The position numbers were made by a program, and so were the translations under genes. Source: Bolinopsis microptera (taxonomy: Eukaryota; Ctenophora; Tentaculata; Lobata; Bolinopsidae). Taken from it: DNA of 64,000 nucleotides. The DNA lies in NCBI RefSeq assembly GCF_026151205.1, contig NC_087084.1:9544894-9608893 (forward strand), read 5' to 3'. Below the pieces are notes generated by a model that saw only the letters and a list, made by a program, of their open reading frames with translations, made no database searches and was not told the origin of the DNA. This document shows, piece by piece, positions 16,852-62,465 of the stretch (the stretch's first letter is position 1; each line of letters starts with the position of its first letter).

Positions 16852-16927
<76 letters not shown>
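16852..16927. repeat. Homopolymer run of 76 G
   Basis: An uninterrupted run of 76 G on the plus strand. Downstream, at 17058-17079, is a run of 22 C, so the ~130 bp between them is bracketed by inverted homopolymers and contains several CTTAGTAC motifs. Such a tract could form G-quadruplexes. Its exact length may be affected by sequencing or assembly. Confidence 0.8.
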
Positions 16928-25401: not shown

Positions 25402-27677
25402 TTACAACATTCCATCGTCCTCTTCCTCGGCTATTTCTTTAGCGTATTCTAGGTCCTGCTGCTCACGCTCACGCTGCTTCTGTGCATCCTCCAGGTTATC
25501 GTTGTAAGATTTGGGAGGGAATCTCATTGCCTTGATGCTGTGGTTGTGTATGTCAAGGCAGAAGCGGATGCGTTCGTGGTAAGCTTTCAGAGGTTCGTTG
25601 GTTCCATAAACGTTGGCACTGTCATTGCTTTGCATGTAACCCTTTTCGTGATCAATCGTGGCCTCAATCACACCGTCATGGATAGCCTGGGAAAATTGAA
25701 ATTAAAATCGTATAGTTGCAACCTACACTACCCATCTTATTTAAGCAATACTTGAGAATAATGTCTCGAGAAATTCTACATTTTTGGCACTCTATAGCAA
25801 AACTATAGAAAAATCATAAATTCAGACAGTCTCGATAACTATATTTGTTTTTAAAAAATCTAAAAGTAATTTATAAAACATCATCACCTTAGCGATGATG
25901 TACTCAGCATCCTCAGGGCTATCTAGCTGCAGTTTATCAGCAACATCAGCCAGACTAATTCTACTGTAACTCAGTGCGACACTCTTGATACCTGAAATAA
26001 ATTGATTGTAGTAGGGGTTCTAGTTCGCAGTAAACCAATTCAGTTCGCAGTAAACCACTTAGCATCAGTTCGCAGTAAACCACTTATCATTTGTATCTTT
26101 TTTAGCTTGTTATCAGCAGTCGTTATCTGCAAGTGTTAAACACCACGCTAACCTGATGAAATTCTGATGAAATTCCTGATGAATTTTCCACACAGTGGAA
26201 AAGGATATGCAATCGGAGATTGGAAAGCTCATGAGAGCTGTGAACTGTGGCTCATATTTTATTATTTAAGCTGCTCTACGAGCACATAAGCTAGCTAGTT
26301 AGTTTTATATAGTTAAGAGTATTAGTTACAAATTATTTTGAGAATACCCATTTTCGAAAATTCCACTCTAACCAGGAAATGCTCGATTACAAAAATGGGT
26401 ATTCTCAAATAACTGCCTATGAGGTCATTTGGGTTGGACGGCACAAACCACTGTTTTGGTGTATACCCCCTTAAATATATTAAAAAATTGTAACAAATTT
26501 TGGTATTAGGCCAGTTAAATGATCACGAAGAAACAAACTGTATTTGAAAAAAAAAGGAAAATATGAAAGCAGAAAACATACCTGTTTTGATGACATTGTG
26601 GCGTAACCTGTTGATCAGAGTCATTGTACCTTCCTTCATGAATTTATCAGAATATTTTTCCAAGACAATGGAGAACTTAGCCAGGTCACCAGCAAGAACA
26701 GCTTGAGTTAACTGTAAGTATGGGTGAAGAGACATCATCAGGTGCTGATCCCTGAAGATGTGGCGCTCTGGGACCTCCCCGAGAAGAAGTTGAACCACCA
26801 CAAGAAGCTTGGTAGCAGCTTGCTTAAATCCAATGGCCGCATTTTGGGGAGCCTTTCTTATGGCTTGGTTGAGATTCTTGAAAGCTTCAGAATAATCCAG
26901 CTGGGTTGCCTTGATTTTACCCAGATAGAAAAGGTATCTTGCGCTTTCATTGTTGTTAGCATTTTCAGGGAAGGTGGTTTTGCTTATCAATTTCTCGGCT
27001 TGTTCGTACAAGTTATAGTGGATGTAGTTCCGTAATAGGAGATTTAACAGCATAGCTTGTCCCTCGCTGTCATGTCTGAGAGTTGAGGTACGCAGGCGAC
27101 CATGAAGAAGTGTACGAGCTTCATGAAGCCTTCCTGACATCTCAAAAGCTCGACTGTAGTAGAAGAAACACCTAGCTCCCAGTAAGTGCATGGTGGGTTT
27201 ATTAACAGACATAACTCGGTTAATCAATGCCTGAGCACAGGGGATGCTGTCATTGATGCGGTTATTGTCCAGCAAACTTATCAGTCCAAGGAGATTGACA
27301 TATATCTCAGTAAGCACACTCCTAGCATGAGGCTTTTCATCTTTGCTGTCAGAACAAGGAAAGTAACTCAACAGCTTTCCTTTGAACTCATAAGAATCGG
27401 AAATGTAAGTTTTAGTGAGCTGATTGAGGACAGCATCGTTCAATCGCTTCCTTGTAGATGCCAGTTGTCTCAAAACTCTTAAAACAAATCGAGGTTCTTT
27501 GTTAACAACACTTTTTTCAATGATGCTAATGTGATCTTTGATGTCCTCTATAGTAAGTGCATCTATCTCAGATTGTGGCTTTGGTGCTTCTGCTTCTTTC
27601 ATCTCCACATCTTCAGATTTAGGTTTTTCAGCCTTTGGTTTCTCGCCTTTAGGTTTCCTCTGTGCTTTTGAGGCCAT
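25402..27677 (-). CDS. PSMD3: 26S proteasome non-ATPase regulatory subunit 3 (Rpn3)
   Basis: Rpn3 is a lid subunit of the 26S proteasome regulatory particle. It helps to scaffold the deubiquitinating lid and acts in cytosol and nucleus. Three exons: 27677-26582, 25991-25888 and 25686-25402, all GT-AG and phase-compatible, giving about 494 residues against roughly 530 in vertebrates. The N-terminus is charged ([20 protein letters not shown]). The middle is helical-repeat sequence with [20 protein letters not shown]. The C-terminal part is the PCI domain: [37 protein letters not shown], then the family hallmark [20 protein letters not shown]. An acidic tail ends EEEDDGML. The ATG at 27677 is the only sensible start, since the frame is closed just upstream. 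Nothing suggests loss of function. It is the most secure gene in the left half and fixes the animal-type splicing used for the other models. Confidence 0.97.
26018..26412. repeat. Small repeats inside PSMD3 intron 1
   Basis: Three copies of AGTTCGCAGTAAACCA lie at about 26021-26090. A small inverted repeat follows at 26333-26412, with arms TATTTTGAGAATACCCATTT and AAAAATGGGTATTCTCAAAT around a ~40 bp loop, a short MITE-like hairpin. Confidence 0.7.
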
Positions 27678-27729
27678 GACTGCTTGTCTTACTTTTCAAT
27701 ATGCTAGAATATACAAAGTGTTAGATTAG

Positions 27730-28440: not shown

Positions 28441-29089
28441 CTATGTTAATAGGGACTACCGGTGGGTGATGAATAATTGAGAATCCAACAGGATCTTGTT
28501 CTCTTCATTGTGCTGATTCCGGGAAGCATTTGTTTTACACTCTAATCCTATTAAAAATCGAGATATCGGTCATTGAAAAATGAGTAATTATAGGCCTGTC
28601 AATGATTGCAGCCCAATTAAGAGCTGATCAGTTGCAGCTACTTGTGCCATATAAGGGATAACTGAAGTCACGTGACCGCCAATCCTATCACGTGACCTTG
28701 ATTCGTAAATCCTTGGTCACGTGATCACATTCGTACCGTGTCGAATGCTGACTAGGATATCTCGTGACGTCACCAGAGCTCAAGCTTCCTGACCAGGCCT
28801 TATATGGAATAATATAGTGTATCACGTGTAATTGGATCCAATTAAGATGAGCCGCGCAATTATCGCAGCATCTCGATCTGGTATCACCTGTTGAAACCCA
28901 GCAGGCAGCTGGGCCAGAGATTTTAAAATAGAAGGATTTTTTGTTGATGAAAATCGAAGCGAAAATCATGTAACCCTATGTTTCCGAGGACGCCGAACAC
29001 GATAAAACTGGTTATAATTATCATACTCAAGGGCAAATTGCTTTAAAATGCACTTGAATGTCATAGTTGTTATTATAAAAGGGTATTAT

Positions 29090-30087: not shown

Positions 30088-31983
30088 AGGTATAATGTAA
30101 CGTTAACTCCAGATATAAGGCACAAGTTAAAGGACCAGTTAACTGAAAAAAAGTTATCCTCATATTTTGACAGATTGTGACAAATAGCAAACTAAGCAAC
30201 GAGTCGAAATTGTTTGTTCGTAAGTCATATATTAATATGCTAATTGCGGTTCTTTTGCACCCTGTCTAAAGACTCTATCACGATCCTATCGAAAATGGTA
30301 TTACTATAATAAATATATTTGGTAGACCGGGTATTTTGGCGGGAATTCTGTTCCTACGGCACTGTTCTGATAGAAGCTACTTCTACTAATGGTCCCAGAG
30401 GAACGGCCGTAAAGTAGCCAGACTTCTTGTCTCCTGTACTGGCTGACACATGCGGATTAAAGTTAGAAATTTCGCTATGTGTAATTAAGCAATGAAAACA
30501 ATCCAAAATTATCACATATGACATAAGTTCTAATAGCAGAAACTTTCTAACCGTACATTCACCCGCCACTGTTCAAGAACCTATATCACTGTTTAAAATC
30601 ATGACGTGAGCACTGTACATCCAATCAGCTATTCCTTTAGTTAGGATGATAGCCAAAACTATAAGGATTTTGGAGAACTAGGGTAATAGTCATAATTTAA
30701 TTCAAAAATTTGAGTGAGTTACACGTGTTTTATTGACGATGATAAACATTTGCAATGTATTTCGCTATGCAAGCGCGCACTGAGGGACTTTATGACGTCA
30801 CGAGGCCACAGCTTATTATTGCAATAACACGCGTTACACGTACGCTAGAGAGTTGGTTCTTTCGGCGATACGATTCTTTACCAGTTTGTCACAGCTGATT
30901 TAAATCTTAGCCAAATTGGAGACTACATATTATGATAGGAAAAAGTTTAATGTTAAAGGTAAGGTTAACTTTAAATTTGAGGCAGAAGGTAATGAGTAGT
31001 GTACAACGGAAGGGGACCATTCTCATAAAAGGAGCGTCGACTTATCCGTAAGTAGCCCTAGCACAATCCTTAAATACCGCAAGTTCATCCTTAAACCGTT
31101 ATAAAGACTTGAAATACCGCTTGTAGAAGTCCCGATACAATTCTTGGTAGTCCTTTTCGATATTGGTTGAAATCTGTATTCGTTAATCTTAAGCAAATAT
31201 TTGAATACATTTCTTTCATCTTCTGAACTTGAAATCTTTCCTTCATAAGCCCGATTATTAGTTGAGAACTAGTAGCGTCGTTGTTTACAATTACTGAGAT
31301 TCGGCAGAGAGACTGGTGCCACCCTAAGCCGCTCAGGCGCTTAGTTTATAATAACATCTATGACATTCAAGTGCATTTTAAAGCAATTTGCCCTTGAGTA
31401 TGATAATTATAACCAGTTTTATCGTGTTCGGCGTCCTTGGAAACATAGGGTTACATGATTTTCGCTTCGATTTTCATCAACAAAAAATCCTTCTATTTTA
31501 AAATCTCTGGCCCAGCTGCCTGCTGGGTTTCAAAAGGTGATACCAGATCGAGATGCTGCGATAATTGCGCAGCTCATCTTAATTGGATCCAATTACACGT
31601 GATACACTATATTATTCCATATAAGGCCTGGTCAGGAAGCTTGAGCTCTGGTGACGTCACGAGATATCCTAGTCAGCATTCGACACGTTACGAATGTGAT
31701 CACGTGACCAAGGATTTACGAATCAAGGTCACGTGATAGGATTGGCGGTCACGTGACTTCAGTTATCCCTTATATGGCACAAGTAGCTGCAACTGATCAG
31801 CTCTTAATTGGGCTGCAATCATTGACAGGCCTATAATTACTCATTTTTCAATGACCGATATCTCGATTTTTAATAGGATTAGAGCGTAAAACGAATGCTT
31901 CCCGGAATCAGCACAATGAAGAGAACAAGATCCTGTTGGATTCTCAATTATTCATCACCCACCGGTAGTCCCTACTATGTTAA

Positions 31984-39085: not shown

Positions 39086-41469
39086 TTAAAATGATAAAAT
39101 TCTAGAAGGTTTAAAGTTCTTCCCTTGGAACACAGCCAACAAATCTTCAGCAGATTTCCCCATATTATCTACAAAATCACTGAAGTGATCGTTGGGGAGG
39201 TAGCAGGAAACGGCAGCTCCGAAACTTTCTTTACTCATCAAGTAACCTGGAGATATTTACTGTTATCTAAATGGGAAGTGGTACTTCCAGGGGATATATA
39301 TTATATAACTGTTGCACACTATGATGATTGCAGATCTGATATATGATAGCATAAATTTAGAATTCAATTCATAACTCGATTTTGGGTATCCCTCGAAATT
39401 CCAGTTTTAAAAATTGAAAGCTTTAAAAATACTGTCACACCAAATAAATATATTGTCGATTAAACCCACCTATCCCATAGCCTTGAGAAGAAACTGCCCC
39501 AAAAGTTAAGTATAGTTTAAGAGCCGGTGACCCAACAGTACTGGTAGACAGCCCAATATTCGCCATCTTACCCCAACTCGGATCTGTAAACAACTCCAAC
39601 TCTTTCTCCCCTTGATGTCGGTTCATCGTGCGCAACGCAAGCAAATGTCTGTCAAACCCTTCTCCTTGAGCAGCTTCCTTACAAAGTGACACATGCTTTG
39701 AGGAGGTTTTCTTGAGCAGATCCACAATCTCAGATAAGCTGGCCTGATGATCGTGATCAAATGCTACAGAACAGTTTTTAGTTTCAGTCGAGCAGGATCT
39801 GATAGTCTCAGTTCTCCCTGATCTATAATGAGCGGTACTACCTGACTCGTATGTTCCCACACACTCCCCGTGTGTTCTCCAATACCCCATCTGGAATATC
39901 AGCTGACTCACAGAATCTGGGCTCATTCCGAACTTTTTGATTACACTCTTTCCGAAACCACCAAAGTTGAAATCTTCAACTTTAGATCCCGAATTAGCAG
40001 CTACATACTGAGATTTAGCCTTTTCAAGTTGACCTAGAATCGAGTCACTGTAGACAGGATCAACTCTAACAACAGGTATAGCATCACTTCCAGCACTCTT
40101 CACAGGCACCTGTCTCAAATAATCAATATGCACGTTGTTCATCATGTTCATTTTTGCGAAACCATCTAACCTAGAGTGTTCCCAGTTCACACCTGCCTTT
40201 CCATCCTGAGTAACCACCAAACTAAACGACTTGTCAAACCACCGGTTGTGGCCCTCTCCAACCAGTCCGTTCTTCAGAACCTCACCTGAGTTCTGGGTCT
40301 TCAAATCATCCAGACACAACACGAAGATTGCTTCATCAATGACATCTAGAAAAAGTTTGTTCTGCGCTTCAAGCTCTGCGCGCACGTTAGACCAATCCTC
40401 TCTTTCCAGTGCAGTGAAATACCCTAATCCTTGTTTGTTAGGAGCTCGTGAGTCAGCTAGAATCTCCTCTAGCGCTAACTGCAAAGCGCCAGTGTCTCTT
40501 ATTTCACCTTTACTATCCAAAACTTCAATACTGTAAACATGTCCCTTGTGCAGCACTGCAAGATGTCTAGAATCAGGGAACTTCACATTCTCATCACGGG
40601 TCTTGCCGGGAATACGCGTAGACTGGAACAGCAGCGGGAACTGCATCATACACGCATTGATGGGTGGTAACTTATTGTCGCGCAGCGTACAGAAGTAGCG
40701 CAGAGTGGATGTAACCAGCTGTGTTGCTTTGTCTATCTGGGTGTTAAGCGCTGGGTCCGGATGGTCGGAGTAGGTTAGGAAGGTGTTGGAATTGAGTAGG
40801 ACGGACCTTCGGTCACATAGGTACATGTCAAGCCAGGCATGGTGGATATAGCTGTGTTGAGGGTCAAGTGTTTTTTCTCTGGCTAGGAGTGCCGCGTGGA
40901 GGTCTCTGCCTATACCTATAGGGAGGATGAATTGAAAATAATCGAGAAAACCTTCAAGTACTAAATTACTGTAAAACCAGATACTGTAAAACCGAATATA
41001 ATAATGTGCTCTATCAAAACAACTTCAAAATGCACAATTCACCCTTCTTGAACTTGTTGACAGTATCAGAAGTAGCAGCAAACTCAGCAGCAGTTAGGAG
41101 AGGTCTCTGTGCGTTCAGATATCTTGCACAGGTGTCCGCTAGGTTAGGAATAGGAAGACGAGGGAGAGTCTCTTGGAGAGCCTGAAATATGTCAAATATG
41201 TAAGTCAGTGCAGTGATTAGAGGCTTTTAATTCGGAAAATCTATAACTTATAAGTAAACAACTGAAATACATTGTTTTTGTATTTGAGTGTCATTTACAC
41301 TACTATTACTCACAGTAGTTGGGGTATCAGAGTGGTGAAGATAATTTCCTCCAGCCCCTGAAGGTACGGTACCTAAGTGCCTAGGTACGGTACCTAGGTA
41401 GCTATTAGAAGCAGCGTGAACTAGGTATCGGGTATCATTTAGACAAGATTTACTGGCTACTTTCAGCAT
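39086..41469 (-). CDS. CPT2: Carnitine O-palmitoyltransferase 2, mitochondrial (copy A)
   Basis: CPT2 transfers long-chain acyl groups from carnitine to CoA on the matrix side of the inner mitochondrial membrane. Four exons: 41469-41314, 41181-41043, 40915-39470 and 39246-39086, all GT-AG, phases matching, about 633 residues with no stop. The N-terminus is basic (MLKVASKSCLNDTRYLVHAA), a plausible mitochondrial targeting peptide. Family blocks: ETLPRLPIPNLADTCARYL, SYIHHAWLDMYLCDRRSVLL, STSTVGSPALKLYLTFGAV. The catalytic His345 and Asp349 are present, but the motif reads EHSRLDGF where copy B has EHSWGDGV, and neighbouring residues also differ. Against copy B I count roughly 35 changes in about 450 residues, about eight of them in the 17 residues after this His. 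It may be an active enzyme with altered properties or a decaying copy. The final exon ends differently from copy B (PSRILSF). Confidence 0.93.
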
Positions 41470-42560
41470 TCAGTAATTTTTAACAGAAACAGAAGATTTG
41501 TGTTATGAAATTATAACCACACAGTTGATAACAATTTGCAGTGTAGCGGACAAAAATCAAAACTAATGTAACAACTTAGTGTGTGATCTATTCAGATAAT
41601 TAGCGCTGCCTTACGTCAAGGCGGAAAAGGTGCAGGAGACTACGTACTCCACAATGGCATCTGATACAATACAATATACCTTATGTCACACACCCCGTAC
41701 CCGTTTTAAGAAGACGCAATCAGGGCAATAACTAGATTTTTCAAGGTCGTTAGAAGCAATTAGACTATTAGTTATATGGGGAATGTCATGCAATCAGTGA
41801 CTGATTAGTAATTGAAGACGGTTTTTATAATGCTGCTTATGTGAACTACAGTGATGTGCCCTGATGAGGTGTTATTGGAGTACTGCGAGAACTTTAAGTT
41901 TATTATCGTGAGGGATTATTGTCAAATAGTAATAAAACATGACAGACTCTTCAGCATGCAGTAGCCATTAACTGATAACCACAGTTACGAATTCGATTGA
42001 CGTCTTAGTCTTAGTCTTACGATATGTTACACAATTTGGTACGCGGACCGAATCGCTATATATTTTAATTTATAGCGTAATACCGGAACGGGTTTGTGGC
42101 GTACCATCTCACCGTACCCGCATCCCTACACCGCGGTAGCCGCACCATACATTGATCATTATACTTCAGTAGAATCTGATTAACAATTAAGTTACGCACG
42201 ATTTGCAAAAGCATATGAGATTCGATCAGTTAGGGCGCAATTAGATTTTGACCGTTCTGTGCAGTACATGCTTATAGTTATACGTTTTTGTTGTATGAGT
42301 GATGAGTAAGGTGTGGAATTGTAAAAGTAAGCTATACCGTACCAATGTATTTTTTACGCTGATTTTGAATAAGACCTATTACATAGCATGAAATTAAAGT
42401 CATTTTTAGACGAGTTATGATCAAATAATAATTTTTGTCAGACGCACGCACGTGACAAGCTTTACTTGTAAAACGATATTTGAGCTGTTTGTTATTATAC
42501 TTTAGATTTAGAGTTAGTTTTGGTTTTTAAAGTAATCGTGAAGATAATAACAATATATAT
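41470..42560. other. No gene seen
   Basis: AT-rich DNA upstream of CPT2 copy A. It has little resemblance to the sequence upstream of copy B beyond the first ~20 bp before the ATG, so the inverted duplication ends about here. A promoter for copy A should lie here but no element can be named. Confidence 0.4.
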
Positions 42561-42571
42561 AATAAAGATTT

Positions 42572-42839
42572 ATTATAGCTGTGGTGCGCACGGTGCCGCG
42601 CAACGGCGTTGTGGGGTCGGCCACTCACGCTGAATAACAGAGTAGCCAAACCGGGGTCTATTACCCGTACGGCATATTATTACGCGCAGGGTCACTGGCG
42701 GTCCGCCGACCAGGGACGTCCGGTGGCGATCTGCCTCTGGTCTGCATGATATATGACCACCAAATCTGAGAGCAGGTTGGGGGCACTACGGAAAGCTTAT
42801 AAGCTACCGTCAACTATTACTACTAGTACTACTACTACT
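42572..42839 (+). mobile_element. SINE-like retroposon with 11-bp target duplication
   Basis: A GC-richer segment of 268 bp is flanked by the exact direct repeat AATAAAGATTT (42561-42571 and 42840-42850). It ends in a simple (ACT)n tail (TACTACTAGTACTACTACT), the structure of a SINE or short non-LTR retroposon in plus orientation. Internal sequence such as GTGCGCACGGTGCCGCGCAA and ACCAGGGACGTCCGGTGGCG is not recognised as tRNA- or 5S-derived. No coding potential. Confidence 0.75.
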
Positions 42840-43069
42840 AATAAAGATTTGAAGACTAAAGTACAAATGTATGCCATGCACCTTATATAACTTTAAATAC
42901 TTACCATTAAAATCGAAATCAGCATTTACAATTAATTTACACAAAACAGTCAAAACACAAAATTTAATTGCACCTGGCTATGCGTAAACACATGGGTAGC
43001 CAAAACCAAAAGTGAACTACTTCATATTTCAATATTTTCGTAATGGAATGGATTGCCATCCTCAAAATT

Positions 43070-43815
43070 AATTGACGCGATGTCAACCCTTCCAGCTAGT
43101 AGTAGTACTGATCGTTGCTCTGCGAAGCAATAATGCAAAACAACGATGCGAACATGGAACAGAGAGGTAAGATCAGAATGAAAGTTCCAAATTCGCGCGG
43201 CGCGTCGAAGTTAAGGAGCAATTAGTCCTCCAATTCTCAAAATTTAGTAAAAAGCCTTATTAATTATAAGCATTTTCTGCTCGATTATACGCTAATCAAA
43301 CATTAAATACACTTTTTATTATACGTATTTTGACCGGATAACAATGATCTAAAATGCAAATGCAAAATGGTCATAAAATACAAATTATTAAACTCAAATT
43401 TTTTTTTTGGTTAAAATTGCAAAAAATCAATTTTTCAAATCCAAAAAAATATTAAAATTTATTAAAAAAAGTAAAATAAGTGTAAATTTAAATTGATACA
43501 CGATGGCAATCCTTCGCAGCTCGGCGAGTCTCAGTGGTGCATTTTGCCGATCTACCGAATGTTGCGAGAATAATTATTTGATGCGCGGCGCGGCCCAAAT
43601 ATAGTGCATCATGCGACAAAAATTTAAACTTTTTTTATTTATGCGTGGTTTAATTTTTGGTACTATTGGAGGTATATATCGTATTTTTTGTAGCGCGATG
43701 CGTTACTGTGCCGCGCCGCGCACTTGCAATAAGGCTTCTCACAGCGATCTGGCTAGATCGGCGAGATGCGCTACTGTGCCGCGCCGAGCTGCCATGAATT
43801 GACATCGTCAATTAA
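43070..43815. mobile_element. Non-autonomous element with inverted ATTGACGATGTCAA-type ends
   Basis: The left end contains AATTGACGCGATGTCAACCC. The right end, reversed, reads ATTAATTGACGATGTCAATT. An inner inverted pair is also visible: CAGCTCGGCGAG ... CCGATCTA at 43517-43557 against GATCGGCGAG ... CGCCGAGCTG at 43757-43792. It shares blocks with 33.5-34.4 kb. No transposase. Confidence 0.55.
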
Positions 43816-45116
43816 TCGTATTTTGTAAACAATTTATTTGTATATTCAATATTTCGTAATAAGGATGAATTGAAAAATAATTTCCGCCAAAAAAGATTTT
43901 GAAATTAAACCAAAGTTTTGAGTGCGCCGCGCATATTTTCTAAAAATTATACACAGAATGAAAATCGAGCGCTAAAGCATATAAACTGTCATATTGTCAC
44001 ATCACAGTGCTGGCGAGCACGACCGTTGCATTTATTGTGGGTATACTATGTTCCCCACTTACTATTATACCCCTTTTACTATTATACCCCTTTGGTACAC
44101 GTTACAAGCCTCTTTTGTGCACGCGAAGCGTGCACTCCGCCTCCGGCAGGAGTTTTCCAGGCATTAAGACTCATCGGAAGTCGTTCAGCAGATTTATTTT
44201 TAGTTCAAAACATTCTAATTTGATGTCGAAGATGACAGGAATAAAAAATAGTTATGTTCAGATTTTTAAGAAATTTGCATAAAATACTCGCCAGCACTGT
44301 TATACGAAATTCGGTAAAAAACCCAAAATCGCCATATTCAGGTGTCCTAAAAACCATGTTAAAATTGAGTTAGAGATCTGAAATTTTTCAGGGCGTCTAG
44401 ACGTTGACCAAATTGACTGCAAAAAAAGTTTCAGGTTTCAGGAGCATCGGGAAATGGGTTTTCTAGAACCCCTGTTTTACGACAGATTGTCCCTGAATAT
44501 ACATGTATACAGATATACATATATATTCAGGGATAGACGCTTTGCCAGTCAATTGTAGCCTGTATTTAAATTGTGCATTAGGCTAGTTTTAAAGTTGAAA
44601 ATCGAAAAGTTGCACACGTGGGGACACGCCCAAATTGATAGAAAATTGCTAAAATCACTGAAAATTGCTGTTTTCGTCATTTTCTGTCAACTTTAGAGTG
44701 CCGTTGTGATTACAGTTCTTCTTGAAATACTTTGAAACTTTGCATGCTTATCAAGCTATATATAAAACAATTACATGCAAAAATTTAGGGCGATTCAATA
44801 TTGGATGCGCATGAAATGTCCGCTCAAAGTTTGCACGTGCGAAAGGTGAGAATTTTGCTCATTCGTGATTTCCAACAAATTCTGCTTTGCCACGACAGTT
44901 TAATGTCATTATATATGAATTTAATGTCAACTTGAATGAGTATTAAGTGGTATATTCAGTCAGTGATGGACCGATATGCTTACCTAAACACAAGGAAATG
45001 TTTTTAAAGGAAAAATTTCGAAATCGTTGAAACTTCCTCCTTATTATAATGAAGATATCAGTTTATATTTCGACTTTATAAAGTACCCTGACATTATAAT
45101 AAAAAAGAGATGATAT
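43816..45116. other. No gene recognised
   Basis: Contains the GTGCACGCGAAGCGTGCAC hairpin near 44117, related to one at 35.3 kb. At 44492-44533 a stem-loop reads CCCTGAATATACATG ... ATATATTCAGGG. Open frames at 43918-44282 are AT-rich and unsupported. 44280-44960 reads like a degraded repeat. Confidence 0.35.
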
Positions 45117-45621
45117 TTTACCAAAACCCATAATCATGGGTAGAGTGGACCGCTGCCAGTGTCTCTCTTTCCCAAACAAAAGGAAATGATATTAATTTGA
45201 TTGACCGTTCTCAAATGCAAAATGATACCGAGAATGAAATCGGTCGCTCGCTTTTCCCATTCATTTACAATTGTAATAGATTAAGAAGAACTACCCAAAG
45301 GCAGCTGTACTCGGCAATAAAGATTCAATAAACTTCAGCTAATGCAATAAGTGATAACTACCACCCTTACCCCGAAATACTAGGTATCGACCCGAACGCA
45401 ACCCAAAGAGATTTTTACAGCATCTGATTGACATGTAATCAATCGAAAATTATTACAATTCGTAAGCCGTGAATGAATGGGAAAAGCGAGCGACCGATTT
45501 CATTCTCGGTATCATTTTGCATTTGAGAACGGTCAATCAAATTAATATCATTTCCTTTTGTTTGGGAAAGAGAGACACTGGCAGCGGTCCACTCTACCCA
45601 TGATTATGGGTTTTGGCAAAA
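45117..45621. mobile_element. Fold-back element, two 151-bp arms
   Basis: The arm 45117-45267 is repeated almost perfectly in reverse complement at 45471-45621. It includes CCCATAATCATGGGTAGAGT, CCGCTGCCAGTGTCTCTCTT and GAGAATGAAATCGGTCGCTC, around a ~200 bp loop. Only a base or two differ between arms, so it is young or kept alike by repair. Non-coding. Confidence 0.9.
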
Positions 45622-45716
45622 TAACTACTTTAGTAGTTTTAAGCGGTTTTTAAAGATTAGATTAGATTAAGAACAATGAAATATACATCATCACTAGTTT
45701 TAGACATTTTTCCGAA

Positions 45717-48297
45717 TTTTTTCCCTAGATCGTAGGGAATAAGTAATCGGGTTTGGATATATGAGGTGGCCCGATGGACCTGCGATGACGACAAAAGTCT
45801 GCTCCTTCGCAATATAGACCACTCCCCTATAATTATGTGTACAAAAGGAACCTATTTTGCGCGCGCGAGGCCAGTTATGTGTTAATTAATTAGAGGCATA
45901 GCAACCAGTTGTAGGTGCTTGACGACTGTTACACAGATTTCCATCGGGTTACAATTTACTCTAATTCATTAATATAGCATATTAGTCATCTGAGCGGATC
46001 AATCATCAATATTTAAAGTGTTATTTTGTTGAAACAAGCTCAATAAATTACCGAGTGATAAAATTCAGCAAGTCAAAACAAATTAAATTATGATATCAGC
46101 TGATAAACTTGTGGCCGATTATTTAACAGTCGATCGACACCGAAGGGTAAAAAGCGATTATATATTTAAGAACAGATGTTACTTTACATTTACACTCAAG
46201 AAGCGACTAAGATATGTTGCGGTATGCTTTTAAAGAATCCTATATAGTCGATGGTGCTGTACAGCACCATCGACTACATAGATGTGTCGAGTAAGCATCA
46301 AAATGTATTAGTTTATGTTAGATACAAATAATAACTAAGATGAGACAGAATATTTTATTACAGTCAATAAAGTTGGCATACGATGTCATAATATGACGTG
46401 ACATGATACGTAAACACGAAACAAACCGCGTAAAATATGAAATGATCTACAACCAAACCACATACAGATCAACGGCGACACCTCAGATGCGCGCAGAATT
46501 TTCAAGTTCTGCACGCCTAATATAATAATGAAAACGATTATCACCATGCGCGCCAAACACCACTCTGGGATACAATAAAGTAGAACAATTAGTATTACAT
46601 TGTAGGCAGTAGGGAAATTTGATCGTGCGTGGTGTTACCGCGGCGAAATTCTTGTTCTTCTTTCGTCATTAAAAAACAAAGTTTTAACAGAATTGTCATA
46701 AAAATAATTTATCTCCATAAAGTAGAAATTAAACTAATAAATGAAAAACTGTTAATTTAAAAAAAATTGAAGAAACTTATTCCTATTTGGCAACACACGG
46801 ATTTTTATGTAAATATTGAACTTTTTGCTTCTTATTTTCGATATAATTTATACCCTCTATCTTCCCTAGAACTGTGTATGACACAAAAGTTGCCTGTGTC
46901 TACTGAGTTATTATTCTTTTTAAATTCATCTAGGTTAATTTTAAAATCAATGACAGACACTGAATTTCTAACAAAAGGTGGCAATTTATTCCAAAAGCTG
47001 ATAACATGCTCTAATAAAAAATTATTTGACAACGTTTTAATATTTCTATCGTTATTGTGGCATTTCAGAACTTCTTTTCCTTCGAATTGATTATCATTTC
47101 GCTGTGTAATTTAATCATTAACTATTTTTTCATGTATTCTCTTTGATGTGGATTACACATCCATACTAAGTAAAACAAAAGTTTAAGTAAAACAAAATTT
47201 CTAATGGAAGTCGACTCTATATAATGTGACAAGCTTTTTATCATATTCTTTAATATACTCAAAAGTTGACTCCACATGTGACATACTTTTTATCTTCTAC
47301 TATATAATTTATCGTGATTGGTTGACACTGAATTGGTTTTAATGGATCCTTTACAGTTACACTGTTAACAAGAATTTCGCCGCGGTAACACCACGCACGA
47401 TCAAATTTCCCTACTGCCTACAATGTTATTGTTTTACTTTATTGTATCCCAGAGTGGTGTTTGGCGCACGTGATCATCGTTTATATTATATTAGGCGTGC
47501 AGAACTTGAAAAATTCTGCGCGCATTTGAGGTGTCGCCGTCGATCTGTATGTGGTTTGGTTGTAGATCATTTCATACTTTGCGCGGTTTTGTTTCATGTT
47601 AATAGCAATAACGATGCGTATCATGTCACGTCATATTACTGCATCGTATGCCAACTTTATTGACTTGTGACTGTAATAAAAAATTCTGCCTCGTCTTAGT
47701 TATTATTTTTATCTAATATAATTTAAACTAATACATTTTGATGCTTACTCGACACATCTATACTTATAGCACCATCGATTTTCGAGCCTTTTATTTGATA
47801 TACGATTCTTTAAAAGCATACCGCAATCTTGATATTAGTTGCTTCTTGAATGTAAATGTAAAGTAACATCTGTTCTCAACTATGTATTCCTATGCTTTTT
47901 ACCATTCAGTGTTGATTAACTGTATAATAATCAGCCACGATTTTATCAGCTGATATCATAATTTTATTTGTTTTGACTTGCTGAATTTTATCACTCGGTA
48001 ATTAATTAAGCTTGTCTCACCAAAATAACACTTAAATTTATGATTGATCCGTGTGTAACAGTCGTCAAGCACCAAAAACTGGTTGCTATGCCTGTAATTA
48101 ATTAACGCATAACTGGCGTCGCGCGCGCAAAATAGACTCCTTTTATACACATAATTATAGGGGAGTTGTCTATATTGCGAAGGAGCAGACTTTTGTCGAC
48201 ATCGTAGGACCGTCGGGCCACCTCATATATCCAAACCTGATTACTTATTCCCTACGATCTTTTTGCCTTCGGCAAGAGTAGGGAAAAAAATTTGAAG
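45717..48297. mobile_element. Long-TIR element, 2.6 kb, arms of about 940 bp
   Basis: The left arm (about 45717-46662) begins TTTTTTCCCTAGATCGTAGG. The right arm (about 47366-48297) is its reverse complement with roughly 10-15 percent differences and a small extra hairpin (CTTGCCGAAGGCAAAAA) near its outer end. Shared landmarks include GGAGCAGACTTTTGTCG and AACACCACGCACGATCAAAT. The left arm alone has a perfect palindrome, TAGTCGATGGTGCTGT plus its complement, at 46246-46277. The ~700 bp loop holds a LINE remnant. No transposase is seen and no clear target duplication was found. Confidence 0.82.
46832..47096 (-). pseudogene. C-terminal remnant of a LINE reverse transcriptase
   Basis: The minus-strand frame contains HVISFWNKLPPFVRNSVSVI and then DFKINLDEFKKNNN. 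This is the conserved WN-x-LP ... FK-x-x-LD-x-F ending of jockey/CR1-type polymerases. Everything upstream of it is missing. It sits in the loop of the 45.7-48.3 kb inverted-repeat element and differs in sequence from the LINE at 20.9 kb, so it derives from another family. Confidence 0.7.
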
Positions 48298-48505
48298 TTT
48301 GATGGAATTACAGAAACGAAAATAATTGATAATTCATCACAAGGAATTCATTAAAGCAGCTGAAAGTTTGTTGCTTAATTAGTATCAGGTCATTGTCCCC
48401 AAAATTTGGCTCATATACCAGCTATATTGTGACCCAACATTAATGTGGTTTTGAAACATTAGTTCATTGACTACAATCATGTAAATCGAAAACTTATCAC
48501 CAGCC

Positions 48506-49946
48506 ATGTCATTTCCACCATCTAACGATGCTTCAATGATGCCAAGTCCAAGACGGGGAAAACGGAATCCTCGCTTTTCCTCTCCAGGACAACAGTTTTC
48601 ACCTGGTGGCCAACAAAATTCCTTCCATCAGTCGCCTTACAATAACGGAGGAGGCCAACAGTCTCCCTATAATAACAGAGGAGGCCAACAGTCTCCCTAT
48701 AATAACAGAGGTTTTGGGTACGTTACACTTTATGGCTTGAGATATCAAATGGTGAATGTATATGAATGTATCTGTGACGAATATTTTGATCTAAAACCTT
48801 AAGCTGTATTTGTTGGCTTTTCAATTGGAACTGATGGGATTTTTGTACAGTGCTGTTTAATTTCTAGAATTGCTGATGAACAATGAACATTAATTTAGTT
48901 CATTTCACTGCAGGACTCCAAATAGACAGTCAGGTGGACGCGGGCGGGGCCGTGGACGTGGACAAGGGTGTCAATATGGGGACTATCAGAGAGATGTCCA
49001 ACAGTTCAGTCCCAACTACCGGTCTATGAGTGGAGGTTATGGAGGCTCCTCACCGGTATGATTATAACTATTCCTGTAACAAATTGACAGTATATATCTG
49101 TACTTTTTATTGTAGGAAGGATCTTTGAATTTCAACAAATTTTTGCATAATATTTCGGTGATTCATCTATCTATTTTTAATTGACTCTAATTGATTACAA
49201 ATTGGATTTGTAATTCTATGAAAATTAACTAAACTAGTTGATTTCACCTCCTCAGAATTGTAGTTTTGACCCTAACCTGAAAAGAAGAATGCACCCACAA
49301 GGTAACGGACTCTACCACCCGTCTATGGCAACTGATCCGTGGGAAGGGTTATCATCTGAGGATAAACCTATGTTCAAGTGAGTTCAATGTTAACTAATTA
49401 ACTAATTAATTAATTAATCAATGTTCAAAACATGTTTTAGTCAGCTAATGAGATTTTCATGTATAGCAAATTCTATCTATTACTTATTAAATAAGGCCAT
49501 GCGTTGATTCATCAAATTCGACTTTAAATATTCAATCAGTTTAATCTTAACATAATAATATTAATATTAAACTCTTTAAACGCAGGGCTGCAAACTACAT
49601 CAGCGAAAGTTATTTGAGTTACTGCGCTAAATTGCAAACGAAATCACGTGAACGCACATTTGAGGATGATTGGAAGACATCGTCTGATTCCACAACTACA
49701 CCCTCAGTATCTCAGTTAGCAGCAAATGTCTCCAAACTCTATGACTCATTTGTCTCTAGTAATTCTGAAAGTATTCCTGGAAAACTAAAAGAACATCGGA
49801 ATGACGATAGGCCTACTAAAATCCAAAAAACTGAAACCAGTATAAAAAATACTGAAACGGCTACAGAAACTTTGAATGTTGAAGAAGGAGAAAAGAAAGT
49901 AAAAGAGGATGACGAATTTTCTGATGACGGAAATTTGATGTTTTGA
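48506..49946 (+). CDS. Low-complexity nuclear-type protein resembling MPLKIP/TTDN1
   Basis: Four exons, 48506-48717, 48914-49055, 49256-49377 and 49586-49946, are GT-AG and phase-compatible and give about 278 residues. The N-terminus is Ser/Pro/Gln/Gly-rich with SPRRGKRNPRFSSPGQQFSP and repeated QQSPYNN(G/R)GG. Exon 2 is an Arg-Gly box (GGRGRGRGRGQG). Exon 3 carries KRRMHPQGNG then YHPSMATDPWEGL (residues 138-150), very like the conserved C-terminal Y-x-P-S-M-x-x-D-P-W-x-x-L block of M-phase-specific PLK1-interacting protein, a nuclear protein mutated in non-photosensitive trichothiodystrophy. Here about 130 extra residues follow, acidic and Ser/Thr-rich, ending DDEFSDDGNLMF, which the vertebrate protein lacks. 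The family call rests on one motif plus composition. It is read in the same direction as CPT2 copy B, about 0.5 kb upstream of it. Confidence 0.7.
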
Positions 49947-50474
49947 TCTTCATTTATTTAAATGTTTCACTGCCTATGACTTGATAGATAACAGACACTT
50001 TTTCCGTATCAAATCTGTGAATTTTAATTTTAGTCAGGATGTAAAACACATTATAAAACCTTTTATAATGTTTATGCCTTTTACAACTTTCTTTTTATTA
50101 TATAATATTATTATTATCAACTGAAATATAGGAGAACATAAACGTGGATGCGACAGAATTTTAGCACTAAAGAAAAGTTTTGAAAACTGGGATTCGAAAT
50201 TGAATTATATTTTAAACTGTTTAACATTTGAAATATTTTATCATTCTGCTATGTGGACTTTTATTCCAGTTCTTAACTCATTTGTCCTTATCTTTCTAAA
50301 TTTAGTTTAACAAATTTATGTTCAAAACATACATCAAGACAGTGGAATAAACCGTTCAGTCTGGGATTTGCTTTACACAAGAGCCTCCCCCCCCCCCCCT
50401 CTTTTGATGTTTTAATAACGTAATGTGTGGTTTGTTCTATTATTTACAGCTCTCAACATTTAAAATTACCCAGG
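49947..50474. other. Intergenic region before CPT2 copy B
   Basis: AT-rich, with a C run near 50388. ATTTACAGCTCTCAACATTT and AAATTACCCAG just before the ATG at 50475 look like splice acceptors, so a non-coding first exon upstream is possible. Confidence 0.4.
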
Positions 50475-53400
50475 ATGCTAAAAGTAGCCAGTAAATCTTG
50501 TCTAAATGATACCCGATACCTAGTTCACGCTGCTTCTAATAGCTACCTAGGTACCGTACCTAAGCACTTAGGTACCGTACCTTCAGGGGCTGGAGGAAAT
50601 TATCTTCACCACTCTGATACCCCAACTACTGTGAGTAATAGTAGTGTAAATTTTTTTAAAATTAAATACTTTTCAAACTTTACAGAGTACAGCAATTACA
50701 ACGTATGAAATAAACTCGAATAAATTATTGCCCCCGTCTGTAAAATCTGACGGGAGACCAAACACGGTACTGCACAGTAAAACGTGCCCGCAATTACATG
50801 GCCCCCGATATGATTTTTAAAAGTATGAAACAAAATTGTGATAAAATAAATGTGTGGTGAAGAATGTGAAACAGTTCAAATTTCTTCAGACGAGGCTGAT
50901 ACACTGTTCTTATCAGAGCTGACAATCTTATTGTTCCTTATGAAATGAACTCTGTTAGGCTCTGCTTTCCTCTTCTCTTTCAATTCCTCCCAGAGCTTCT
51001 TGTAGGCTCTCCTTTCTTCCACTGATCTGTCTGGGCAAATGTAGATACTTTTATAGCCCTCTTTGTGCGTAGTAGTTTCGCTTTTCGCAGCACCTAAGTA
51101 ACCATATCAAAGCTATTTAGAGATAGTTTAGTAGGTCGTATTAATGTGCCGGCTCTCTTCAAACCAACTCTACAACAGTCACGAAATGAAGGTTTCTCGT
51201 TTATCTCACCAAGAACTTCAGCAAATTTGTTTTCTAACTTCTCGCCGTCGGATTCACTTATTCCGTAGATTACGACGTTTCTGCTTCTTTCATCCTTTTC
51301 AGCTATTGTCTTAACTGTAGTACAGATCTTCTTTGGCGTAAGAGCAGCTGCACAAGTCTTCTTCAGGGCAGAAGAATATGATTTCATCTCTGTCTGCACA
51401 GTTGTTTGGACAGTCTTAAGTTCTTCGTCCTTCTTTTCAATGAGCTGCTTCTGCAAATCAATGACAGTTTTCTGCTCCGCGATTAATGAAATGTTCTGTT
51501 TATCTACTCTCTCCGCAGCCATTTGCAAATGAGGAGCTGCATAACGATTCAAAATGAAGCAAACAGTTTGCAGCCAATCACACAGTTTTTCGTTCGAAAC
51601 TGATCGCTTGTTCAGGTTTTTCAATACTAGATCTCCGTATTCCTTAACATCCAGTTCATGGCACATTTCATTAAAAACACTGTTTGTAGCTCTCGCTACC
51701 TGATCTGCATGTCTGGCACTAAACAGATCATCATTATCGGGGTCATCGACCAAATGCTTCGTATGTTCATGGTATGAGTACTGCATCGTGTATATTCCAA
51801 TGCAATGTACAGTTCTTGTATACAGGCTACACAACGATCACACTAAAAGACAAGCACTTCTTATCGCAAGTTACAACAGCTGATAACAGAGCTCGCTATT
51901 TGCAACCAAATATAAAACGACTACACATCTCAAATACAAAAACAATGTATTTCAGTTGTTTACTTATAAGTTATAGATTTTCCGAATTAAAAGCCTCTAA
52001 TCACTGCACTGACTTACATATTTAACATATTTCAGGCTCTCCAAGAGACTCTCCCTCGTCTTCCTATTCCTAACCTAGCGGACACCTGTGCAAGATATCT
52101 GAACGCACAGAGACCTCTCCTAACTGATGCTGAATTTGCTGCTACTTCTGATACTGTCAACAAGTTCAGGAAGGGTGAGTTGTGCATTTTGAAGTTGTTT
52201 TGAAAGAATAATTCAAAACATTGATATCGGGTTTTAACTTCTTATGTTTGTTTTTATTTGTAAATATTATTAATGAGTCATACTAAACCGCAAAGTTTTT
52301 ATCTAATTACTAGCAAAAAAGAGGTTACAAAATTTCATTTAGTAAGATTTTAGGTTTCAATTTGGTCTATCAATTTTTAACATTCCGCAGGTGTAGGGAG
52401 AGATCTCCACGCGGCACTCCTAGCCAGAGAAAAAACACTACACCCTCAACACAGCTATATCCACCATGCCTGGCTTGACATGTATCAATGTGACCGAGGC
52501 TCTGTTCTCCTCAACTCAAACCCCGTCCTGACCTACTCCGACCATCCGGACCCAGCACTTAACACCCAGATAGACAAAGCAACACAGCTGGTTACCTCCA
52601 CTCTACGCTACTTCTGTACGCTGCGCGACAATAAGTTACCACCCATCAACGCGTGTATGATGCAGTTCCCGCTGCTGTTCCAGTCTACGCGTATTCCCGG
52701 CAAGACCCGTGATGAGAATGTGAGATTCCCTGATTCTAGACATCTAGCAGTGCTGCACAAGGGACATGTTTACAGTATTGATGTTTTGGATAGTAGAGGT
52801 GAAATAAGAGACACTGTTGCTTTACAGTTAGCGCTAGAAGAGATTATAGCTGACTCACGTGCTCCTAACAAACAAGGATTAGGGTATTTCACTGCACTGG
52901 AAAGAGAAGAGTGGTCTAACGTGCGCGCAGAGCTTGAAGCGCAGAACAAACCTTTTCTAGATGCCATTGATGAAGCAATCTTCGTGTTATGTCTGGATGA
53001 TTTGAAGACCCAGAACTCAGGTGAGGTTCTGAAGAACGGACTGGTTGGAGAGGGCCACAACCGTTGGTTTGACAAGTCGTTTAGTTTGGTGGTTACTCAG
53101 GATGGAAAGGCAGGTGTGAACTGGGAACACTCTTGGGGAGATGGTGTGACTATAATGCACATGATAAATAATGTACATACTGATTATTTGAGGCAGGTGC
53201 CTGTGAAGAGTGCTGGAAGTGAGGCTATACCTGTTGTTAGAGTTGATCCTGTCTACAGTGACTCGATTCTAGGTCAACTTGAAAAGGCTAAATCTCAGTA
53301 TGAAGCTTCTAATTCGGGATCCAAAGTTGTTGATTTCAACTTTGGTGGTTTCGGAAAGAGTGCAATCAAAAAGTTCGGAATGAGCCCAGATTCTGTGAGT

Positions 53401-54207
53401 CAGCTGATATTCCAGATGGGGTATTGGAGAACACACGGGGAGTGTGTGGGAACATACGAGTCAGGTAGTACCGCTCATTATAGGTCAGGGAGAACTGAGA
53501 CTATCAGATCCTGCTCGACTGAAACTAAAAACTGTTCTGTAGCATTTGATTACGATCATCAGGCCAGCTTATCTGAGATTGTGGATCTGCTCAAGAAAAC
53601 CTCATCAAAGCATGTGTCGCTTTGTAAGGAAGCTGCCCAAGGAGAAGGGTTTGATAGGCATTTGTTTGCGTTGCGCACGCTGAACCGACATCAAGGGGAG
53701 AAAGAGTTGGAGTTGTTTACAGATCCGAGTTGGGGTAAGATGGCGAATATTGGACTGTCTACCAGTACTGTTGGGTCACCGGCTCTTCAACTATACTTAG
53801 CTTTTGGGGCAGTTTCTCCTCAAGGCTATGGGTTAGGTGGGTTTAATCTACAATATATTTATTTTGTGTGACAGTATTCTCATAGCTTTCAATTTCAAAA
53901 ACTGGATTTTCGAGATATATCCCAAATCGAGTTATGAATTGAATTCTAAATTTATGCTATCATATATCAGATCTGCAATAATCATAGTGTGCAACAGTTA
54001 TATATTCCCTGGAAGTACCACTTCCCATTTAGATAACAGTAAATATCTCCAGGTTACTTGATGAGTAAAGAGAGTTTCGGAGCTGCCGTTTCCTGCTACC
54101 TGCCCAACGATCACTTCAGTGATTTTGTAGATAATCTGGGAAAATCAGCTGAAGATTTGTTGGCTGTGTTCCAAGGGAAGAACATTAAACTTTCTAGAAC
54201 TGTGTGA
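50475..54207 (+). CDS. CPT2: Carnitine O-palmitoyltransferase 2, mitochondrial (copy B)
   Basis: Same mitochondrial acylcarnitine/CoA transferase as copy A, in mirror orientation. Exons 50475-50630, 52036-52174, 52391-53836 and 54053-54207 give about 631 residues. Exons 1-3 have the same lengths as in copy A. The catalytic motif is the family form EHSWGDGV (His345, Asp349, offset about 27 from human numbering). Other blocks: RTETIRSCSTETKNCSVAFD, DPSWGKMANIGLSTSTVGSP and, from the last exon, YLMSKESFGAAVSCYLPNDH. The targeting peptide contains a small internal duplication (LGTVP twice). Intron 1 is 1.4 kb against 132 bp in copy A because a LINE ORF1-like segment has inserted. Similarity to copy A continues through introns and past the stop, so this is a segmental inverted duplication, not retrotransposition. 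All conserved residues are kept, so this is the likely ancestral-type enzyme. Confidence 0.95.
50652..51928 (-). mobile_element. LINE-derived insertion with an ORF1-like gene, in CPT2 copy B intron 1
   Basis: Comparison with copy A's intron 1 shows the insertion directly: GTAGTGTAAAT and CTCAAATACAAAAACA, almost adjacent in copy A, are about 1.28 kb apart here. The minus frame 51834-51094 encodes a coiled-coil region (KQNISLIAEQKTVIDLQKQL) and then an RRM-like ORF1 segment (RSRNVVIYGISESDGEKLEN ... FRDCCRVGLKRAG). It stops at a TAG. The natural continuation (GYKSIYICPDRSVEERRAYK ... EPNRVHFIRNNKIVSSDK) lies in another frame down to about 50887, so the gene carries a frameshift and is a pseudogene. 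No reverse transcriptase is present. The plus-strand left border (TTTTTTTAAAATT) could be a short A-rich tail. Confidence 0.8.
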
Positions 54208-60550: not shown

Positions 60551-62334
60551 AAGGGTCTCAATAAGAGGTCTCGACTGCCTAGGCGTCAAACCTTGGCAGT
60601 CGGTAGTTTTCCTCTGGCCCGGGATCAGCTGACCCTAGGGACCAGAGGGTAAAGGTGTAGAGACTATGTGTATCTACAAATCTTTCGAAGTTGTTTTTAC
60701 AAGAGACAGGGCTTGCTACGCAAGGGAAGAAAACCGGGAGAAACATTCACAAATTATACAAATAAATATTATAAAACCTAGCTAAAAGAAATTCAAACAA
60801 TCCTACACTACTACAAATGTTTATTACATACTACAATGTAATACACGATGAATAAATGCTGTAAAATCAAGAAACAGGGCTTGCAGGGCAAGGGACGGAA
60901 CACAGGGACTGGCTAAAGAGTGTATAAAACAGTGATTCAGCAAGTACCCATTGGGTATTGCTGAATCTGACCCACAAAATACCACAATCAATACAAGAAT
61001 ATACAATATTTAAACAAACATCATGTTTATACAAGAATCAGGGCATGCAGAGCAAGAGAAGAAAAATAAGAGAAAAACTCCAACACATGTATACCCCTTA
61101 GTCCAGTAAATAACAATAATTACTTGTACACAAAACTGTATAATATAAAATACATAACAAATACACAGTCTACCCAATATACGGGTTAAAAATTGTATAA
61201 ACAAGAGACAGGGCTTGCATAGCAAGGGAAGAGATATAAGAGGACCAGGTAAAAAGTGTTTATTACAGTATCCAATGAAGAATAAACTAAATATAGAGTA
61301 TCTACAGTGTATTATACTCTCAAAAATATCAAATGTCTAAGACCATCCTGAGAATTCTGGCTGATCCAAGTAGAGCTGTCTTCTGGAGATTAGAGATGCT
61401 CAGATTGCAGTGGACTGCGTCGAGGTGTTTACGAAAGTTAATGGTGATAGTTCCTAATGCGCCTATCACCACAGGGACGATTGTGACCTTTCGTAAATTC
61501 CAGTTCTTCTTAATTTCTCTTTTTAGGTCTTGATATTTCAGTATCTTTTCTTGTTCTCTATCCAGGATCCGGGTATCTCCTGGGACTGCAACGTCAATGA
61601 TGGTTGCTGCGTTGGTTACCTTGTCTACCAGGAGGAGATCCGGTCTGCAGTGTTCGATAACGTGGTCCGACTGGACATGGAAGTCCCACAATATCTTGAC
61701 TTTTTCGTTCTCCAGCACCTTCTCTGCCCGGTGTTCGTACCACCTTTTACTGCGTGGGAAGCCGTATTCCTTGCACAGACTCCAGTGCAATGCGGCAGCT
61801 ACTTTGTCATGCCGACACTTATATTCTGTCTGTGAAAGTTTTGGGCACCCATTCAGTATGTGGTCTATTGTCTCGTAATGATTTCTGCAGAGTCTGCAGA
61901 GGGGAGAAGAGCCAGGTGTTTTGTCAATCCTGTGCTTCACATAATTCGTCCTAAGTGCTTGGTCTTGGGCTGCTATCAATAATCCTTCTGTCTCCTTCTT
62001 CAAGTCTTGTTGAGTGAGCCAGTTCCAAGAGGTTAACGGGTCCGCTATACCCATCATCTGCCTTGGGAACTGTCCGTGCATCACTTTAGCAGTCCACTTC
62101 TCCTTGCGGATTTCCTCGCGTTCTGTTCGGTCGATATCTTTCTCTATCTCTTCACACAAGAGTATCTTGTCTTTGACAAAGTAGTCCTTCAGAGCAATCA
62201 GTTCTGGGTCTCTACTCTTCATCACATAAGTGGTGAGTGCATTCTCCTCTCTCTTTACGACTTCCTCTATACTATGTAGCCCACGGCCACCCAGTTGACG
62301 GCTTACGTATAACCGATCAACATCTCCTTGGGGG
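60551..62334 (-). mobile_element. LINE with Zn-knuckle and restriction-like endonuclease (5'-truncated)
   Basis: The open minus frame runs from about 62333 to a stop at 61329 and encodes the C-terminus of an R2/R4-type retrotransposon. It begins DVDRLYVSRQLGGRGLHSIE, continues KWTAKVMHGQFPRQM and SWNWLTQQDLKKETEGLLIA, then has the zinc knuckle CRLCRNHYETIDHILNGCP (C-x2-C ... H-x4-C). Next is the endonuclease core RPDLLLVDKVTNAATIIDVA (PD...D) with downstream lysines (EKILKYQDLKREIKKNW). The reverse transcriptase part is missing, so the copy is truncated at 62334. The frame is intact. The 3' part (60551-61328) has a hairpin CTCTGGCCCGGGATCAGCTG ... CCCTAGGGACCAGAGG and four spaced ~167 bp repeats. 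Clade assignment is from domain style. Confidence 0.88.
60700..61245. repeat. Four spaced repeats in the LINE 3' region, about 167 bp apart
   Basis: The motif AAGARACAGGGCTTGC...GCAAGGGAAG recurs at about 60701, 60869, 61033 and 61203 (spacing 168, 164, 170), each followed by an A-rich stretch. Within each motif GGGCTTGC and GCAAGGG can pair around a few bases, so each copy has a small hairpin. Confidence 0.8.
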
Positions 62335-62465
62335 TGTATTATTATTATTATTATTCCCGGGCCCGGTCTTATTCCCGGTCCCGGCTTAATCCCGGTCCCG
62401 GCACTTTTTCCAGTGGCCCAGTCCCGGTCCCGGTCTCAGCCAAGAAAGCGGTCCCGGTCGATCCT
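62335..62465. repeat. TCCCGGTCCCGG array
   Basis: An ATT simple repeat, then a degenerate array of CCCGGTCCCGGCTTAATC-type words. It directly abuts the 5' truncation point of the LINE, so it was probably the insertion target or a neighbouring element. Confidence 0.65.

Follow-up and report, generated by a model that had tools for sequence, protein, structure and literature searches.

The 64-kb stretch of DNA analysed here (hereafter, the window) contains two intact CPT2-type acyltransferase genes, copy A and copy B, arranged head to head in inverted orientation. Their differences are densest in two short islands of exon 3, one of which lies just past the catalytic histidine, and the islands are over-diverged at silent sites as well as in protein sequence. 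This patchwork is probably the work of gene conversion. The two inverted paralogs would be older than their average identity implies and would have been mostly homogenised, while the two islands and most of intron 2 escaped. The window itself can be inferred to be eukaryotic from its multi-exon genes.

Organisation of the Gene Pair

Copy A occupies 39086-41469 on the minus strand and copy B 50475-54207 on the plus strand. As the original prediction held, both genes have four exons with agreeing phases and open reading frames. The exon lengths are equal except for the last exon, and the C-terminal tails differ. The predicted proteins have 633 (A) and 631 (B) residues, with 0 frameshifts and 0 internal stops. 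The predicted boundaries listed below were read from splice signals and the A-to-B alignment.

41314-41469, minus strand: copy A exon 1, ATG at 41469 (exon reconstruction)
41043-41181, minus strand: copy A exon 2 (exon reconstruction)
39470-40915, minus strand: copy A exon 3, with the catalytic His codon 345 (reconstruction and Pfam PF00755, E 9.2e-136)
39086-39246, minus strand: copy A exon 4, with the stop codon (exon reconstruction)
50475-50630, plus strand: copy B exon 1 (exon reconstruction)
52036-52174, plus strand: copy B exon 2 (exon reconstruction)
52391-53836, plus strand: copy B exon 3, with the catalytic His codon 345 (reconstruction and Pfam PF00755, E 4.9e-138)
54053-54207, plus strand: copy B exon 4, with the stop codon TGA (exon reconstruction)

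Two Divergent Islands in Exon 3

In the 630 ungapped aligned codons, 87 nucleotide differences were counted, which correspond to 41 replaced and 39 silent codons; the proteins are approximately 93% identical. The count of replaced residues, to which the differing C-terminal tails must be added, corrects an earlier figure of about 35. The number of replacements predicted for the 17 residues after the catalytic His was exact: eight fall in codons 346-362. Permutation P values, which are uncorrected for the number of widths (five for nucleotides, four for residues), support this clustering: eight replacements in a 17-codon window stand against a mean maximum of 4.3 in the permuted sets (P = 0.00065, best of four widths). 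At the nucleotide level, none of 20,000 permutations equalled the 14 differences seen within 51 nt (five widths tried). With the broadest width of 150 nt, the peak lies elsewhere and starts from codon 96 (P = 0.009).

The coding differences were also analysed with a two-state hidden Markov model (HMM), which was run on all differences and was blind to the active site. It returned exactly two segments of high divergence, codons 130-146 and 346-363, with divergence rates of 23% inside and 3.4% outside. The likelihood gain of the second state (2dLL) was 27.9, and none of 400 permuted sets reached it (largest 17.5), although these were fitted with 60 iterations and the real data with 120. Together, the islands hold 26 of the 87 nucleotide differences within 99 of 1890 nt, or 5% of the coding sequence. 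Their positions are as follows.

40773-40823, minus strand: island 1 in copy A, codons 130-146 (HMM, 12 differences in 48 nt)
52483-52533, plus strand: island 1 in copy B, codons 130-146 (HMM, 12 differences in 48 nt)
40122-40175, minus strand: island 2 in copy A, codons 346-363, just past the catalytic His (HMM, 14 differences in 51 nt)
53131-53184, plus strand: island 2 in copy B, codons 346-363 (HMM, 14 differences in 51 nt)

A uniform spread of substitutions, which the original prediction had named beforehand as the outcome that would speak against it, was not seen. Its single active-site cluster is confirmed in codons 346-362, but a second island of similar density in codons 130-146 had been missed.

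Both islands are dense, short and made of substitutions only, and such clusters might be expected from a focal burst of mutation, by error-prone repair or template switching, at two places. This explanation is scarcely credible. When random substitutions were simulated, only 0.2% of the stop-free cases matched the silent count of island 1, and a stop codon arose in 36% of cases for island 1 and in 28% for island 2; the silent count of island 2 was uninformative by itself (P = 0.14). Copying from a template in another part of the window was rejected as well, as the only matches to the islands were 11-16 nt long.

Divergence at Silent Sites

The divergence per silent site (dS) is 1.13 in codons 130-145, 0.80 in codons 346-366 and 0.08 outside both. 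Pooled over the HMM islands, it amounts to 0.87, approximately ten times the outside value. Silent differences number 12.0 in 23.3 sites within the islands and 25.5 in 302.2 sites in the rest of exon 3 (P = 6e-7), a comparison in which the islands had been located beforehand from all differences, silent ones included. Counted by codon, 29 of 552 silent codons differ outside both islands. The corresponding counts are 7 of 12 in codons 130-145 (P = 1.5e-6) and 3 of 7 in codons 346-362 (P = 0.005), in windows that were both chosen after the data had been seen. When the scan was restricted to silent differences, the top window of 12 codons, at 130-145, held 7 silent codons (P = 0.0009 for the best of the four widths). 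Island 1 is in fact mostly silent, with 7 silent and 4 replaced codons in 130-145.

Divergence falls into three levels. In the stretch that runs from exon 1 into the beginning of intron 2, 1.7% of silent and intron sites differ. The value is 8.4% at the silent sites of exon 3 outside the islands (P = 0.0005) and approximately 51% at silent sites within them. Silent divergence between the copies is therefore non-uniform, as in a gene-conversion mosaic.

The ratio of replacement to silent divergence (dN/dS) is not raised in the islands. It is 0.22 when pooled over them (bootstrap 0.07-0.64, 4836 of 5000 replicates computable) and 0.27 outside (interval 0.16-0.44). The idea that the cluster behind the His marks protein change as such does not survive this result, because its silent codons are over-diverged too. 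Relaxed constraint, suggested earlier for one functional site, is disfavoured for the whole gene of one copy by the outside value, which lies below the at least 0.5 expected had one copy been drifting freely along its entire length. A pseudogene copy was rejected on the same value and on the open frames.

These results bear directly on a simpler history, in which the inverted duplication is recent and the active-site helix of copy A changed fast, by positive selection or local relaxation, towards a new acyl preference and without conversion. We consider it unlikely. The eight replacements directly behind the catalytic His agree with it, and so do F351, K353, N355 and M357 of copy A, none of which occurs in the 33 aligned relatives (31 from bacteria, plus rat CPT2 and mouse carnitine acetyltransferase, CrAT). 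Position 353 (His+8) also corresponds, by hand count, to Met335 of mouse carnitine octanoyltransferase (CrOT), for which PDB entry titles record a mutant crystal structure; a literature search for CrOT mutants found nothing. Nevertheless, fast change of the protein accounts neither for the silent divergence of the islands nor for the unraised pooled dN/dS. Island 1, being mainly silent, would need a separate explanation, and intron 2 would be left without one.

Introns and Flanks

Similarity between the copies had been reported to include the introns and 3' flanks. This holds for parts of introns 1 and 3 and for approximately 26-29 nt past the stop codon, and it fails in intron 2 after approximately 29 nt. 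In intron 1, the first 21 nt are identical and 106 of the 107 aligned nt at the 3' end agree. Intron 3 is 94% identical: among its 216 aligned sites there are 14 substitutions, 12 in the first 100 and 2 in the other 116. Upstream, the homologous flank reaches approximately 14-16 nt before the start codon, and beyond these limits the flanks are unrelated. The segments that lack a counterpart are listed below.

50652-51928, plus strand: approximately 1.28 kb present only in intron 1 of copy B (break between aligned blocks; both flanking stretches align)
40916-41013, minus strand: part of copy A intron 2 without recognisable similarity to B (alignment)
52204-52390, plus strand: part of copy B intron 2 without recognisable similarity to A (alignment)

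An exon of 139 bases is all that stands between an intron 1 that is nearly identical and an intron 2 that is unrelated, a contrast that is hard to reconcile with a duplication of a single age. The segment found only in intron 1 of copy B contains an open frame of 247 residues, stop to stop (51094-51837, minus strand), without a Pfam match; we assume that it resembles a retrotransposon ORF1.

The starts of the two copies are approximately 9 kb apart, so the genes are not adjacent. Between them, upstream of copy B, lies a multi-exon plus-strand gene (48506-49946), which we take to be a homologue of MPLKIP/TTDN1. Its last exon, the part of the gene that was scanned, gave no Pfam match. No counterpart of this gene was detected on copy A's side, and a remnant near copy A was rejected, since no other match in the window was better than E 0.8. 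A comparison of 41484-45726 with 48261-50458 revealed no hidden similarity either (top match E 0.2). An inner inverted repeat (45727-46656 and 47367-48260, arms 83-93% identical, spacer 710 nt) is nested between the CPT2-type copies; it may belong to a single old palindrome or be an element of its own.

The abundance of inverted repeats in the window, in an assembly that was judged from its sequence alone, raises the question of an artefact in which two haplotypes were joined in inverted order. It is very improbable. Alleles should share their flanks, yet these copies differ in their flanks, in most of intron 2 and by the 1.28 kb insertion in intron 1, and the MPLKIP-like gene is found on one side only. 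Simple alleles were rejected on the same differences.

Gene Conversion as the Probable Cause

Conversion is preferred over a recent duplication with a burst at a single site because the patchwork of introns, islands and silent sites fits it better. Two inverted CPT2-type paralogs would have arisen earlier than their average identity implies, and conversion would then have homogenised most of the length of both copies, patch by patch. Codons 130-146, codons 346-363 and most of intron 2 would have escaped and would thus retain an older divergence. The escape of the islands may be due to chance or to selection against conversion at the active site. Local gene conversion had already been proposed as one cause of the cluster. 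Conversion is supported, but it would act over the whole gene, and the cluster would be the part left out (or brought in). Patchy conversion, the likely cause, is a familiar process, and its position in this pair is what makes it interesting.

Several points weigh against this reading. Only two sequences are available, and it is patchiness rather than a tree that points to conversion. Intron 2 could have been replaced through an insertion or deletion of unrelated origin. The two islands combined hold only 23 silent sites, and the scan of silent differences alone does not single out island 2; at silent sites, the case for island 1 is strong and that for island 2 moderate. The search for a third CPT2 covered the 64-kb window.

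A third gene of this kind is what a further explanation calls for. In it, the pair is young, and one or two tracts (from intron 2 to codon 146, and codons 346-363) were imported by conversion from a third, diverged CPT2. A single event could cover both the unrelated intron 2 and the nearby island 1, and codons 99-129, which lie between them, have a dS above average (0.16). However, these codons are far less diverged than island 1, so there is no single clean tract, and no third CPT2-like piece was found within the window. An import alone is quite improbable.

Family Identity and Active-Site Residues

Exon 3 alone matches the carnitine/choline acyltransferase profile PF00755 over profile positions 41-541 (B) and 40-541 (A) of 574. 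His345 and the acidic residue four positions on, Asp349, are kept in both copies, and the motif after the catalytic His reads HSRLDGF in copy A and HSWGDGV in copy B, as originally described. K419, K423, D430 and E453 have been named as residues of the coenzyme A site of CrAT (PMC11852590). Both copies have residues aligned with these four, by eye and with the CrAT numbering inferred from motifs.

CPT2 is a fat-burning enzyme that transfers long-chain acyl groups within the mitochondrial matrix. Among solved structures, phmmer matched CPT2 with E 8.5e-97 (B) and 1.1e-89 (A); the best matches other than CPT2 were CrAT for B (7.8e-49) and CrOT for A (9.4e-47), and rat CPT2 was also far ahead of choline acetyltransferase (ChAT). 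CPT1 was absent among the structure matches, so closeness to CPT2 is judged against CrAT, CrOT and ChAT. Foldseek searches with the predicted exon 3 structures ranked rat CPT2 first for both copies. The predicted structures (mean pLDDT 86.1 for A and 86.3 for B) have nearly the same elements around the islands. Structure models respond little to point changes, and for this reason their likeness says only that nothing obvious breaks.

The relatives provide a background for the unusual motif of copy A. Leu at the position of L348 occurs in 19 of the 33 relatives, all bacterial, and 13 of the 19 read HxxLDG (by eye). Since 19 of the 31 bacterial relatives have the HxxLD form, copy A need not be dead; its HSRLD is best described as a family-compatible site with several unusual neighbouring residues. 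At position 347, Arg (copy A) and Trp (copy B) each occur in 1 of 33 relatives, the latter being rat CPT2. In one of the bacterial relatives, the catalytic His is replaced by Gln. In island 1, L131 and F144 of copy A match rat CPT2 and copy B keeps P143, so neither copy is simply ancestral. Exon 3 has 34 residue differences, at 5 of which copy A matches rat CPT2 and at 8 copy B (by eye), and 21 give no direction; as far as this comparison goes, the direction of change is without strong asymmetry. Copies A and B are probably both functional.

It is possible, though doubtful, that selection keeps the copies different at the acyl-transfer site despite continuing conversion and that they form a split pair with differing acyl or carnitine preferences. 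Copy A would then carry the bacterial-like HxxLD with F351 and K353, and copy B HSWGDGV with Q131 and V144 at island 1. If selection does hold the islands, the pair is a natural test of the residues that set acyl preference in CPT2, to which two enzymes with their densest differences in two short patches would be well suited. Otherwise, it illustrates that a count limited to protein changes can mistake patchy conversion for an adaptive cluster.

Other Features of the Window

The remaining features of the window are a tandem array, an inverted pair, a homopolymer run and several coding frames.

3062-5926: tandem array with a 41-bp unit, 70 copies, 96% matches
16852-16927, plus strand: run of 76 G, which may have arisen as an artefact of sequencing or assembly
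20951-22543 and 61332-62435, minus strand: RVT_1 reverse-transcriptase frame and a second one that matches zf-RVT weakly (under the family cut-off), probably retrotransposon remains
26526-27695, minus strand: frame of a PSMD3-type proteasome subunit (TPR_PSMD3_N, E 3.6e-105)
28447-29079 and 31345-31977: two inverted copies of 633 nt with 98.7% identity, approximately 2.3 kb apart, which resemble the long terminal inverted repeats of a recent element

An Rfam scan of the window gave 0 matches, and a search of viral contigs gave 0 relatives from 55 pattern matches.

Comparison with Known Systems

Rat CPT2 (PDB 2deb, 2h4t and others) is the best match of both copies in sequence and fold, with approximately 41% identity to copy B in the aligned stretches. 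Its motif HSWGDGV is identical in copy B, and copy A differs. The rat enzyme has approximately 36 residues between chain positions 168 and 208 of 2deb that both copies lack; in the phmmer alignment of exon 3, each copy has 3 residues opposite rat residues 169-207. CPT II is described (PMC8125234) as carrying a membrane-association insert of approximately 30 residues, and the missing segment is probably this insert, judged by position. As neither copy has this segment, the genes are called CPT2-type. A literature search for CPT2 duplicates in invertebrates returned no CPT2 pair that was apparent from titles and abstract openings.

The closest parallels for the pattern come from other genes. In the copepod Tigriopus californicus, GOT1p1 and GOT1p2 form a mosaic of low and high divergence under gene conversion with a low Ka/Ks, and in GOT1Sd and GOT1Sr the exons are converted while the third intron is largely unalignable (PMC3728101). 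The CPT2-type genes share with them a mosaic of divergence between enzyme-gene paralogs and an unalignable intron between exons that were probably converted. Unlike the copepod case, in which four populations and GENECONV back the exchange, they are one pair of another enzyme without an outgroup. A short peak of divergence at functional sites of an otherwise homogenised pair is known from opsins (PMC3924837), and the CPT2-type pair shows a similar peak at functionally important sites. In the opsins, the effects of the sites are known, the history is shown by other primates and the peak lies in one exon, whereas the CPT2-type pair has two islands in one exon together with an unalignable intron.

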